32,692 nt of DNA, taken from a virus. The position numbers and the translations under genes are program-made. Shown here in pieces: positions 29,671-32,692 of this stretch. Positions within the stretch are counted from its first letter, which is position 1. Each line of letters starts with the position of its first letter. The notes under the pieces are model-generated. The model did no database searches and was not told the DNA's origin. It saw only the letters and a program-made list of their open reading frames with translations. The DNA lies in IMG/VR virus record IMGVR_UViG_3300045953_000380, positions 1 through 32,692 of that record, one strand, 5' to 3'.

Positions 29671-30399
29671 ATGACCGAGACAACCGTGATTGAGCGAATC
29701 CAGCGACTGCTACGTGCGCGCGGCGTCGCCCCCAGAAGCATCAAGCCAACCCTGGCAAGGGTTTGCGGCGTCAGCTACCAAGCCGTGAGCCAGTGGTTTT
29801 CAGGCAACACTGCCAATATTCGCACCGAGCACCTGATCGCCATCGCAGATCACTTCGATGAGACCCTCGATTGGCTTCTGCTGGGCGGAGACACCGAGCC
29901 CAGATTCGAGTTTGCGCGCAAAGAGTCGGAGCTCCATGACCTGGTTATCGGGAAGGAGGAGGCGAGGCCTCGCCCTCAACCACTGCCAGGTACTTGGCGT
30001 GGGCCGCCAGTAATGGGCTCAGCCAGACCTGACCGCGATGGTTTCTTTGAGCTCGATGCGGCCTTGGCGATCGAGCCGGAGGGGTATCTCAATGTCGCCA
30101 CGACTGAGTCGAACTCTTACGGCCTGAGGGTCATTGGCAACAGCCTTGCCCCGCGAATCCGCAATAACGAATTTCTGCTCATCGAACCCAGCAGAAAATG
30201 CTTGGCAGGCGACGAAGTGCTTGTGAGGAGCCCAGGCGGTCGGGCAATGATCGCTGAGTTCATTTATCTCCGGGATGATCAGTACCGCTTCGACAGCGTC
30301 AATGCGGACTGCCCTGCCATTTTCCTGAGCAAGGAAGAAGTCGAGTCTGTCGAGTACATAGGCGCCATCGTAAAAAGCTCGCTTTTCTACCCGGCCTAG
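29671..30399 (+). CDS. cI-like repressor with S24/LexA-type C-domain
   Basis: The protein has 242 residues. The HTH domain covers ~5-70 (V-C-G-V-S-Y-Q-A-V-S-Q-W-F-S-G as recognition helix). A Pro/Arg linker follows. The C-terminal domain from ~138 has G-N-S-L-A-P-R-I with the presumed catalytic Ser158. Where the family has its catalytic Lys (V-K-E/R-L after the Gly-rich turn), this protein reads M-I-A-E-F, with Ala195. No obvious Ala-Gly or Cys-Gly cleavage site is seen in the linker. It should keep the lysogenic state, but self-cleavage is doubtful. No strong ribosome site precedes the ATG. Confidence 0.9.
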   Translation: MTETTVIERIQRLLRARGVAPRSIKPTLARVCGVSYQAVSQWFSGNTANIRTEHLIAIADHFDETLDWLLLGGDTEPRFEFARKESELHDLVIGKEEARPRPQPLPGTWRGPPVMGSARPDRDGFFELDAALAIEPEGYLNVATTESNSYGLRVIGNSLAPRIRNNEFLLIEPSRKCLAGDEVLVRSPGGRAMIAEFIYLRDDQYRFDSVNADCPAIFLSKEEVESVEYIGAIVKSSLFYPA

Positions 30400-30534: not shown

Positions 30535-30906
30535 ATGGACTCGATCACTTCGAATGGCTGGACAGGACACCTCGGCATGGGTTTGGCCGAGCGTGAACTG
30601 GAGTGCGTCCTCCGTATCGCAGCAGGCAAATCCAGCAAGGAAATCGCTCGCGATTTCGGCATCAGCGCCGGGAGCGTCGATAAGCGCGTGCTTTCTGCCT
30701 CGACGAAGCTAGGTGTCATCAAGCGCGCTGCCCTGGTAGGCGAAGCTCTCCGTCGCGGCCTGATCGCTCCAGCCTGCGTTGCCCTGCTGGCAATCCTGCT
30801 GGTCGGCCAGCACCAGCAAGCGACCATGACTCGCCGCCCCGAAGGTCCGCGCCGAATCGAAATGCGTGTTGCCTCCCGTCGCGTTGAACGTGACCTGGTG
30901 GCGTGA
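30535..30906 (+). CDS. LuxR-type HTH protein with a C-terminal membrane segment
   Basis: The protein has 123 residues, with a GAAGG site near the ATG. Residues 18-75 form a LuxR/GerE-type HTH: L-A-E-R-E-L-E-C-V-L, G-K-S-S-K-E-I-A-R-D-F-G-I-S and V-D-K-R-V-L-S-A-S-T-K-L-G-V. No sensor or receiver domain precedes it. Residues 76-91 (L-I-A-P-A-C-V-A-L-L-A-I-L-L-V-G) form one membrane helix followed by a very basic tail. A DNA-binding protein anchored to the inner membrane is implied. It opens the rightward operon. Confidence 0.8.
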   Translation: MDSITSNGWTGHLGMGLAERELECVLRIAAGKSSKEIARDFGISAGSVDKRVLSASTKLGVIKRAALVGEALRRGLIAPACVALLAILLVGQHQQATMTRRPEGPRRIEMRVASRRVERDLVA

Positions 30907-30907
30907 C

Positions 30908-31141
30908 ATGGCCTGGGACCGCAATGACCCCATCAACATCCTGGCGCTCCAGCTCAACGAGGAGCTTCGCGCGGCTGGCGACTTCTGTCATGGCTACAAC
31001 GGCCCGGCGCAGCGCGCGTTCTCCCACTACATCCAGGGCCTGAACAAGCCTATCGCCGAGTTGACCGTCCGCGAATTGCAGGCAGCGGCCGCCTTCGCCG
31101 ATGCCGAGCTGAACGACCTCAAATCCCGAGGGCTCATCTGA
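30908..31141 (+). CDS. Small soluble protein of unknown function
   Basis: The ATG at 30908 gives 77 residues, one base after the previous stop; GGTGG lies six bases upstream. It is helical: D-P-I-N-I-L-A-L-Q-L-N-E-E-L-R-A-A-G, then Q-R-A-F-S-H-Y-I-Q-G-L and an Ala-rich helix R-E-L-Q-A-A-A-A-F-A-D-A-E-L. No family recognised. Its stop overlaps the next start as TGATG. Confidence 0.65.
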   Translation: MAWDRNDPINILALQLNEELRAAGDFCHGYNGPAQRAFSHYIQGLNKPIAELTVRELQAAAAFADAELNDLKSRGLI

Positions 31142-31422
31142 TGTGCAAGCTCATCGCCTGGACGCTGCTCGCCCTCATCCTCGCCGCATGTGCCGGCTTG
31201 GTCTTCTGGTTCGCACCTGCGCTCCTGGCTGCCGGTCGGCCTGAGCTGGCGCTGCTGTGCTGGCTTGCTCCTCTGTCGGCCACGGGGGTCGTAGTGGCCG
31301 CCTACATCTGGGCTGCCGACAGCTCCTGGTCTTCAGAATCATCTCGCAAACGTAGCGGCGAGCACCTTTCGAAGGGTGCTGTCCGGTGCGAAAGCACCAC
31401 GCGGCTAGGTTCGGTTGGGTAA
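31141..31422 (+). CDS. Small membrane protein, tail overlaps the GG-repeat region
   Basis: The product has 93 residues. Two hydrophobic segments lie at ~4-30 and ~36-58; an L-A-A-C at 14-17 looks like a lipobox but is probably chance, since the membrane segment continues through it. The C-terminal ~33 residues are Ser/Arg-rich and encoded by bases that also form the hairpins at 31361-31398 and the first GG pentads, so this tail may be set by the RNA, not by protein selection. No family recognised. Confidence 0.6.
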   Translation: MCKLIAWTLLALILAACAGLVFWFAPALLAAGRPELALLCWLAPLSATGVVVAAYIWAADSSWSSESSRKRSGEHLSKGAVRCESTTRLGSVG

Positions 31423-31457
31423 GGCCCGGCCAGGCGAGGCCCGGTACGGCAAGGGCT
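31403..31457 (+). repeat. GG pentanucleotide array A, 11 units
   Basis: GG starts at 31403 and every fifth base to 31453 without a miss. The third base is C or T in 10 of 11 units and the last two vary. The array starts within the last codons of the membrane protein gene and continues past its stop. Confidence 0.9.
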
Positions 31458-31516
31458 GCATAGCAGCGTCATGCACCTTGGCGACAGGGTGTATGGCGGT
31501 GCGGAAGCGCCAACAT

Positions 31517-31581
31517 GGTTTGGCAAGGTTGGGCTCGGTACGGCCGGGCTTGGCAGGGAATGGCACGGCAAGGGCTGGAGG
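31517..31581 (+). repeat. GG pentanucleotide array B, 13 units
   Basis: GG starts at 31517 and every fifth base to 31577 without a miss. The third base is C or T in 10 of 13 units. The stretch ACGGCAAGGGCTG near its end is identical to the end of array A. The array lies in noncoding DNA 66 bases before the next start codon. Confidence 0.9.
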
Positions 31582-31646
31582 TTTCCAGCGTACTGCCCTC
31601 TTTCGAGAGGTCAGTGCAGTGGAAGGCACATACAAAGGGGAGTGAG

Positions 31647-32231
31647 ATGCAAACGATTACGTTGAGACTGGTTGGCACAAGTCCGCTGCTGATGCACGGC
31701 GACCGATTCGCGAACCCGCTGGACTCTGCGACCAAGCAGCACAAGGTCTTGACCGGAAAACGGAAGAAACTCGACGAGGATCACGCCGAGATCGCGCGCT
31801 CCGAGTGGATGGGCGGCCTGTACTTCGACGATCAGGACGGTCCGTACTTGCCAGGGCCGAACGTGAAGGCCGCCCTGGTGGGCGCCGCGAAGATCCAGAA
31901 GCTGGGCAGCGCCTTCAAGCGCGCGGTCCTGGTACTGGATGACCGTTGCCCGCTGGAGTACAGCGGCCCGCGCACTCCGGAGGCCCTGTTTGCGGACTCC
32001 CGGTTTGTCGATGCCAGAAGCGTGGTCGTCGGCACCTCTCGCCTGATGCGGTACCGGCCGAAGTTCAGCGGCTGGACGGCGAAGGTCCAGATCATGTTCA
32101 GCCCGGAGATGATCGAGGAGGCGGACATCATCCGCGCAGCCGAGAATGCGGGCCTGTTCGTGGGTGTGGGCGACTACCGTCCCGAGAAAGGTGGCTCGTT
32201 TGGCCGGTTCGCCGTGGAGGTGATCCAGTGA
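31647..32231 (+). CDS. Conserved phage protein with RAMP/Cas7-like signatures
   Basis: The ATG at 31647 has GGGGAG four bases upstream and gives 194 residues; the frame is open back to 31515 through array B, but no ribosome site supports that start. Three blocks resemble RAMP-fold proteins: an N-terminal strand ending T-S-P-L-L-M-H-G-D (11-19); Y-L-P-G-P-N-V-K-A-A-L (67-77), like the I-P-G-S-S-x-K-G motif; and G-V-G-D-Y-R-P...F-G-R-F-A-V (173-190), like the Gly-rich loop. RAMP proteins bind RNA. No other cas gene is nearby. I recall similar proteins in many phages as unknowns. The fold is inferred. Confidence 0.65.
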   Translation: MQTITLRLVGTSPLLMHGDRFANPLDSATKQHKVLTGKRKKLDEDHAEIARSEWMGGLYFDDQDGPYLPGPNVKAALVGAAKIQKLGSAFKRAVLVLDDRCPLEYSGPRTPEALFADSRFVDARSVVVGTSRLMRYRPKFSGWTAKVQIMFSPEMIEEADIIRAAENAGLFVGVGDYRPEKGGSFGRFAVEVIQ

Positions 32232-32692
32232 CCGTCTCCGCCTATCCGGCTTGGCGCCAAGCCGCGCGCGATCTGGCGTCCACGTTCAGCTACGGCGACG
32301 TTGTGACCCTGGACTGGCTGAGCGAGGCCTTCATGCTGCCGGCGCCGAAGACCATCAAGCAGTACCGGGCCCACCAGTTCGCCTTCCTCCACCACCTGGA
32401 TGCCCTGCGCCAGGAATTGCTGGAGCAGCACCAGCTCGCTCTCCGGAACATCCGAGGCGAGGGGTACGAAGTTGTTCACCCGAACAACCAGGTTGACTTC
32501 GCCTGGACAACGGCCTTCACCCGGGTTCGCCGAGAGTTGGGGAAGTTGGCAAGCAACATCACCCATATCCGACACCACGAGCTCAGCGACGACAAGCGCC
32601 GAGAGCACTCGGATGCACAGGCCAAGCTGTCCTCGGTGATGGGGTTCGTGGACCGAGCCGAACGGCGACGCATCGTCCGGCACGTGTCGTAA
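32228..32692 (+). CDS. Helical partner protein of unknown function
   Basis: The gene starts with GTG at 32228, overlapping the previous stop as GTGA, and ends exactly at the last base with TAA; the product has 154 residues. A longer frame from 31946 lies inside the RAMP-like gene and is rejected. The N-terminus has F-S-Y-G-D-V-V-T-L-D-W-L-S-E-A-F, followed by long helices rich in His, Arg and Leu (F-A-F-L-H-H-L-D-A-L-R-Q-E-L-L, E-L-G-K-L-A-S-N-I-T-H-I-R-H-H-E). A conserved-looking R-R-E-L near 106 and R-A-E-R-R-R-I near the end are visible. Tight coupling suggests that it works with the RAMP-like protein. Confidence 0.65.
   Translation: MTVSAYPAWRQAARDLASTFSYGDVVTLDWLSEAFMLPAPKTIKQYRAHQFAFLHHLDALRQELLEQHQLALRNIRGEGYEVVHPNNQVDFAWTTAFTRVRRELGKLASNITHIRHHELSDDKRREHSDAQAKLSSVMGFVDRAERRRIVRHVS

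Follow-up and report, generated by a model that had tools for sequence, protein, structure and literature searches.

A predicted type II-like VIPR locus with two guide RNAs in a phage contig, and candidate targets in rival phages

The locus and its five-base GG arrays

The window (the whole stretch of DNA analysed, 32,692 nucleotides, IMG/VR record IMGVR_UViG_3300045953_000380) ends with a compact locus in which leader hairpins, vrRNA1, vrRNA2, vipr and vap1 follow one another on one strand, and the stop codon of vap1 is the end of the window. The names are those of VIPR (Viral Interference Programmable Repeat), a phage-borne, CRISPR-like, RNA-guided silencing system described in a 2026 preprint (PMC13142463), which is made of the RAMP protein Vipr, an accessory protein (Vap), and vrRNAs that consist of 9-16 YNNGG repeats and a structured 3' tail. 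The features, with their probable assignments, are the following.

30535-31422, + strand: genes between the CI repressor gene (29671-30399) and the VIPR locus, for a LuxR/sigma-like regulator, a phrog_8933 protein and a small hydrophobic protein
30908-31141, + strand: phrog_8933 gene, which holds the next feature
30995-31027, + strand: predicted target of vrRNA1 of phage LESphi2 (20/22 NN bases, first 9 units perfect, skipped base at codon position 3)
31354-31402, + strand: leader of vrRNA1, two hairpins (about 31357-31384 and 31385-31398; folding z -3.26)
31400-31454, + strand: vrRNA1 guide tract, 11 YNNGG units, GC TA TC TG AA CC CA GA CC AC AA (from the sequence; 19/22 candidate target in a phrog_8933 homologue)
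31455-31511, + strand: vrRNA1 tail, h1 31455-31467 and h2 31468-31497, with linker hairpin h3 31498-31511 (RNAalifold)
31514-31573, + strand: vrRNA2 guide tract, 12 YNNGG units, AT TT AA TG TC AC CG TT AG AT AC AA (from the sequence; 20-21/22 in rival vap1)
31574-31617, + strand: vrRNA2 tail, h1 31574-31589 and h2 31590-31617 (covariation; folding z -3.19)
31647-32231, + strand: vipr, RAMP protein of 194 aa, phrog_4652 (PDB 36pp match, AF2/Foldseek)
32228-32692, + strand: vap1, 154 aa, GTG start, overlapping the vipr stop, phrog_5926 (profile search; phrog_5926 E 3.4e-31)

GG recurs at a perfect five-base step for 11 units (31403-31457) and 13 units (31517-31581), as an earlier note on this DNA had reported. 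The claim that such runs are not accidental is borne out, since the longest GG run in 200 first-order Markov shuffles has 6 units, and so is the statement that they are not a codon pattern. Equal runs elsewhere in the window were looked for and none was found: at the other periods from 3 to 12, on either strand, no run reaches 6 units, with the sole exception of the harmonic at period 10. Counted as YNNGG units, as in the preprint, with the NN before the first GG included, the arrays have 11 and 12 units; the terminal one or two "units" (GGGCT, GGAGG) are part of the tail hairpin and not of the ladder. Array 2 has one unit with A in place of Y (GGAAT). The end common to both arrays, ACGGCAAGGGCTG, comprises the ladder end and the first bases of the 3' tail; AGGGCTG is seen again at ladder ends in related loci. 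The shared end signal that had been suspected there is thus real and corresponds to the vrRNA 3' tail.

Each vrRNA is about 100 nt long, a GGY-NN pentad ladder followed by a tail of two hairpins, and the region folds strongly (z -6.75). An Rfam search of 30900-32000 gives no match at E <= 1, and neither an intrinsic terminator nor a sigma-70 promoter was found adjoining the vrRNAs on the + strand. As the locus lies after CI, it may be expressed in the prophage state. The small hydrophobic ORF (31141-31422) overlaps the phrog_8933 stop codon and ends within the vrRNA1 ladder, its overlap with vrRNA1 being about 20 bases.

Between vrRNA1 and vrRNA2 lie two hairpins of the type found in the vrRNA1 leader, and comparable hairpins stand before ladders in LESphi2, Medea1 and Pseudomonas typographi. 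The leader hairpins at 31354-31402 are the same as the hairpins that separate ladders elsewhere, yet no ladder precedes them; they may be a vestige, or act in processing as a 5' leader.

Vipr, Vap1 and the related loci

The gene at 31647, to which the earlier note had tied the arrays, is vipr. The only PDB entry matched by its sequence is 36pp, "SUSP1 Vipr protein" (36pp_D, E 7e-42, residues 2-193), and a Pfam search with Vipr gives no match. The AlphaFold (AF2) model (pLDDT 96.5) has Csm3/Cas7 chains as its top Foldseek matches (E 1.6e-6, TM about 0.55), and Vipr is thus predicted to be a single-domain RAMP like Cas7. With the 194-aa protein, tblastn finds 161 phage records, including Felixounavirus, Mycobacterium, Gordonia and Pseudomonas phages; the Felixounavirus relatives have about 40% identity to the window Vipr.

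An iterated profile built from the window vap1 finds the gene that follows vipr in Felixounavirus wV8 (E 1e-33); because wV8 is related to SUSP1, the window gene can be equated with the vap1 of the preprint. The AF2 model of Vap1 is mostly helical (pLDDT 93.9), and a fold search gives weak matches to transcription regulators, none with E <= 0.001; a Pfam search with Vap1 gives no match above the cut-off. In VIPR type II, vap1 is predicted to bind DNA (PMC13142463).

Twenty-two phage records match the window with low coverage, and 19 of them are Pseudomonas phages. The five-base register, which was sought in homologous loci at the earlier note's suggestion, is present in Pseudomonas, Felixounavirus and Gordonia phages. 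GG-pentad ladders precede the two genes, follow them or flank them on both sides in the loci of LESphi2 (vB_Pae_LESphi2, OQ594955), Medea1, MakoManhole and wV8; those of wV8 and Medea1 include ladders downstream of the genes. A scan of viral contigs for (GGYNN)x8, blind to genes, gives 120 loci, of which 90 (75%) encode a protein matched by the Vipr profile, and 213 of the 215 ladders in these loci are on the vipr strand. Among genome contigs, a scan with the single Vipr protein finds nothing, and an alignment-based scan finds 27 loci.

The other 30 of the 120 contigs have no detectable Vipr (among them L017, L030, L038, L062, L066, L102 and L124, the last with 30 uninterrupted units). Three of the 30 are simple repeats (L041, L057, L126), and most have hypervariable NN bases. 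Such ladders could be orphan vrRNAs or decoys, or they could belong to systems whose Vipr is divergent. In Pseudomonas typographi (L129, 2157-2935), at least six vrRNAs stand in a row before vipr, one of them with five successive GGCAA units.

The related loci hold 44 copies of the repeated unit, which consists of a ladder, an AGGGCUG..CAGC hairpin and a long hairpin. When 30 tails are aligned, the first hairpin hardly varies, and compensatory changes are seen at 13 of the 17 pairs predicted by RNAalifold, whose model covers nested pairs and leaves pseudoknots outside its prediction; a tail pseudoknot is reported for the SUSP1 clade (PMC13142463). In the ladders of close relatives, position 3 is a pyrimidine in 89% of the units and the NN bases have an entropy of 1.98 of 2 bits. 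GG is nearly invariant in the ladders of related loci, in part by construction, because GG served to pick those ladders. The neighbouring vrRNAs of the window have the scaffold and the tail in common and nothing else, and their NN bases are non-repetitive.

Decoding of the guides

According to the preprint, DNA is recognised by the NN bases of the vrRNA, with a single base skipped (PMC13142463). This rule was examined with 522 distinct guides (the window guides being left out), with ladders masked and exact 8-unit matches: 25 guide-target pairs are obtained at skip 1 and one each at skips 0, 2 and 3. Unit-shuffled guides give 5-7 pairs at skip 1, so that chance may account for between a fifth and a quarter of the 25 pairs. 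The result agrees with the published one-base-skip rule.

The vrRNA2 guide was used from its second unit, TT (the first, AT, being excluded), to its last, AA, and read as NNx. Its best match in 399 Pseudomonas genomes, 20/22, is in the vap1 of a VIPR locus that has four ladders upstream. When all viral contigs are searched with a 17-base gapped pattern, which left open the mismatching unit of the first match and is therefore not fully independent, 13 of the 17 matches are in vap1, and 12 of these 13 reach 21/22; the other four score 19/22. The scores over 62 vap1 matches are bimodal, with 15 at 20-21/22 (several of these 15 target loci are near-identical) and the rest at 16 or below. The vap1 of the window reaches 12/22 at best, and 4 at the homologous site. 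The candidate target in rival vap1 is a site of the type TTGAACTGCTCGACGCGGTCAAGAATCACGAA, in which the skipped base is the wobble position of the codon. Every vrRNA2 target has one constant mismatch, guide U against target-strand G, which is possibly a wobble pair. vrRNA2 is thus, as judged from these matches, predicted to be aimed at the vap1 of rival VIPR loci and not at its own.

The assignment of vrRNA1 is weaker than that of vrRNA2, because several patterns were tried. With all 22 bases and up to 3 mismatches, the 399 Pseudomonas genomes give 3 matches against 1 for the reversed control, none of them convincing, and exact or wobble patterns give chance-level matches alone in viral contigs. 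With one unit left open, 8 matches are found in viral contigs. The closest (L345:34-66), reached after several pattern variants, is on one metagenomic contig and scores 19/22, with 3 mismatches; it covers codons 2-12 of a phrog_8933 homologue and reads MAYSWNPNDPTC. The corresponding protein of the window begins MAWDRNDPIN and its gene, which has diverged at this site, scores 14/22, and in the P. aeruginosa phage homologues the site is absent (12/22). The likely target of vrRNA1 is therefore the start of a phrog_8933-family gene that is carried by another phage contig and adjoins lysogeny control genes. Self-avoidance is presumably the reason why the window's own vap1 and phrog_8933 gene have no target sites.

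The window phage itself seems to be a target. The site of LESphi2 vrRNA1 in its phrog_8933 gene has counterparts in the P. aeruginosa phages PAN70, CF208a and Ostro, whose phrog_8933 genes are also matched at 20/22; a search of 59 Pseudomonas genomes with the LESphi2 vrRNA1 pattern finds nothing. LESphi2 vrRNA2 matches a neighbouring gene of PAN70 and Ostro at 21/22, and LESphi2 vrRNA3 an Arc-like regulator gene in another contig (L176).

At the one-base skip, guides of further VIPR loci (L164/L167, L166 and L181) match genes of rival VIPR phages, several of which are vipr; the targets are in L158, L162, L169, L170, L172 and L175-L177.

Interpretation and comparison with known systems

The locus combines Vipr homology, a RAMP fold, YNNGG vrRNAs, a structured tail, a vap1-family gene and targets with a one-base skip, which are features of VIPR type II. 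With a probability of about 0.92, the arrays are the guide parts of two vrRNAs that belong to a VIPR system similar to type II of the SUSP1/P. fulva clade. RNP formation, DNA binding and repression are established for SUSP1 and homologues (PMC13142463), and by analogy the window locus would be expressed and would silence its targets. Vipr would oligomerise on the GGY positions of the scaffold and present the NN bases; these would scan double-stranded DNA, leaving a single base unread after every NN pair (xNN), and the binding of Vipr and guide would block transcription of the rival gene, with the help of Vap1. The idea that the ladder is a row of binding sites for an oligomeric protein, put forward in the earlier note as one option, comes near to the published mechanism, the protein being the RAMP protein Vipr. 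The variable bases had been taken merely as proof that the spacing is selected; this is incomplete, as they are most probably the message itself, the guide bases.

The other option of the earlier note, a G-quadruplex, or more generally a folded 5' UTR acting in cis on the gene that follows, is very unlikely. GG with three-base spacing could give two-layer quadruplexes and the region does fold strongly, but this explains neither the pyrimidine after GG, nor the strict spacing of five, nor the conserved tails, nor the presence in wV8 and Medea1 of ladders that follow the genes, nor the decoded matches in rival vap1. Quadruplexes are not needed if the arrays are the guide sections of vrRNAs.

Since vipr shares its strand with the vrRNAs and follows them immediately, Vipr could bind its own transcript through the ladder and regulate itself, the NN bases having no guide function. 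This is hardly probable, considering that NN entropy is near its maximum, that decoding of the NN bases gives specific targets at the one-base skip only, and that in other phages ladders follow the genes or flank them on both sides. A plain pentanucleotide repeat (VNTR) or functionless coding repeat, the kind of sequence seen in the few simple-repeat contigs of the pattern scan, can be dismissed: the NN bases do not repeat, neighbouring vrRNAs share scaffold and tail alone, 75% of the scan loci have vipr, and this association and the decoded targets refute it.

If the arrays are read as guides, it is fairly likely that the related Pseudomonas-phage VIPR systems form a network of mutual, guide-encoded attack, in which vrRNA2 would be an anti-VIPR guide, other guides would be directed at vipr, and LESphi2 would aim at the window phage. 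Each phage would be protected by a diverged or absent site, and phrog_8933 would be a shared target. The kind of system was already known (2026); the predicted target assignments are new, including the anti-VIPR guide and the sister phage that aims back. VIPR is a very recent and surprising find: its guide code is gapped, and it has been proposed as an ancestor of CRISPR effectors. A locus spotted by its sequence pattern alone is an independent check of the one-base-skip rule. The candidate targets of both guides make guided warfare between phages directly testable in Pseudomonas phages.

Vipr resembles the Cas7/Csm3 backbone of class 1 CRISPR systems in its predicted fold and, by analogy, in forming a guide-bound oligomer. 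The spacer of class 1 CRISPR is contiguous, whereas the guide of the window is gapped, with a period of five. Class 1 CRISPR-Cas itself was considered and rejected: no CRISPR array is seen at the locus, which has one RAMP and one accessory gene and is truncated by the end of the window.

The LESphi2 locus is similar, with a Vipr that is 79% identical, a homologous vap1, vrRNAs upstream and a position downstream of CI and a sigma-like gene. It differs in the number of vrRNAs, which is three, and in their guides; two of these match genes of phages of the window/PAN70 type. A further difference is that it has no phrog_8933 gene at the corresponding position. VIPR type II of SUSP1 and the Pseudomonas fulva prophage clade (PMC13142463, PDB 36pp) has other guides and another host phage, and in the window both vrRNAs are upstream of vipr; it shares with the window locus the RAMP protein, the vap gene, the YNNGG vrRNAs and their tail, the phage-borne location, the one-base-skip code and (as predicted here) targets in rival phages and other VIPR systems.
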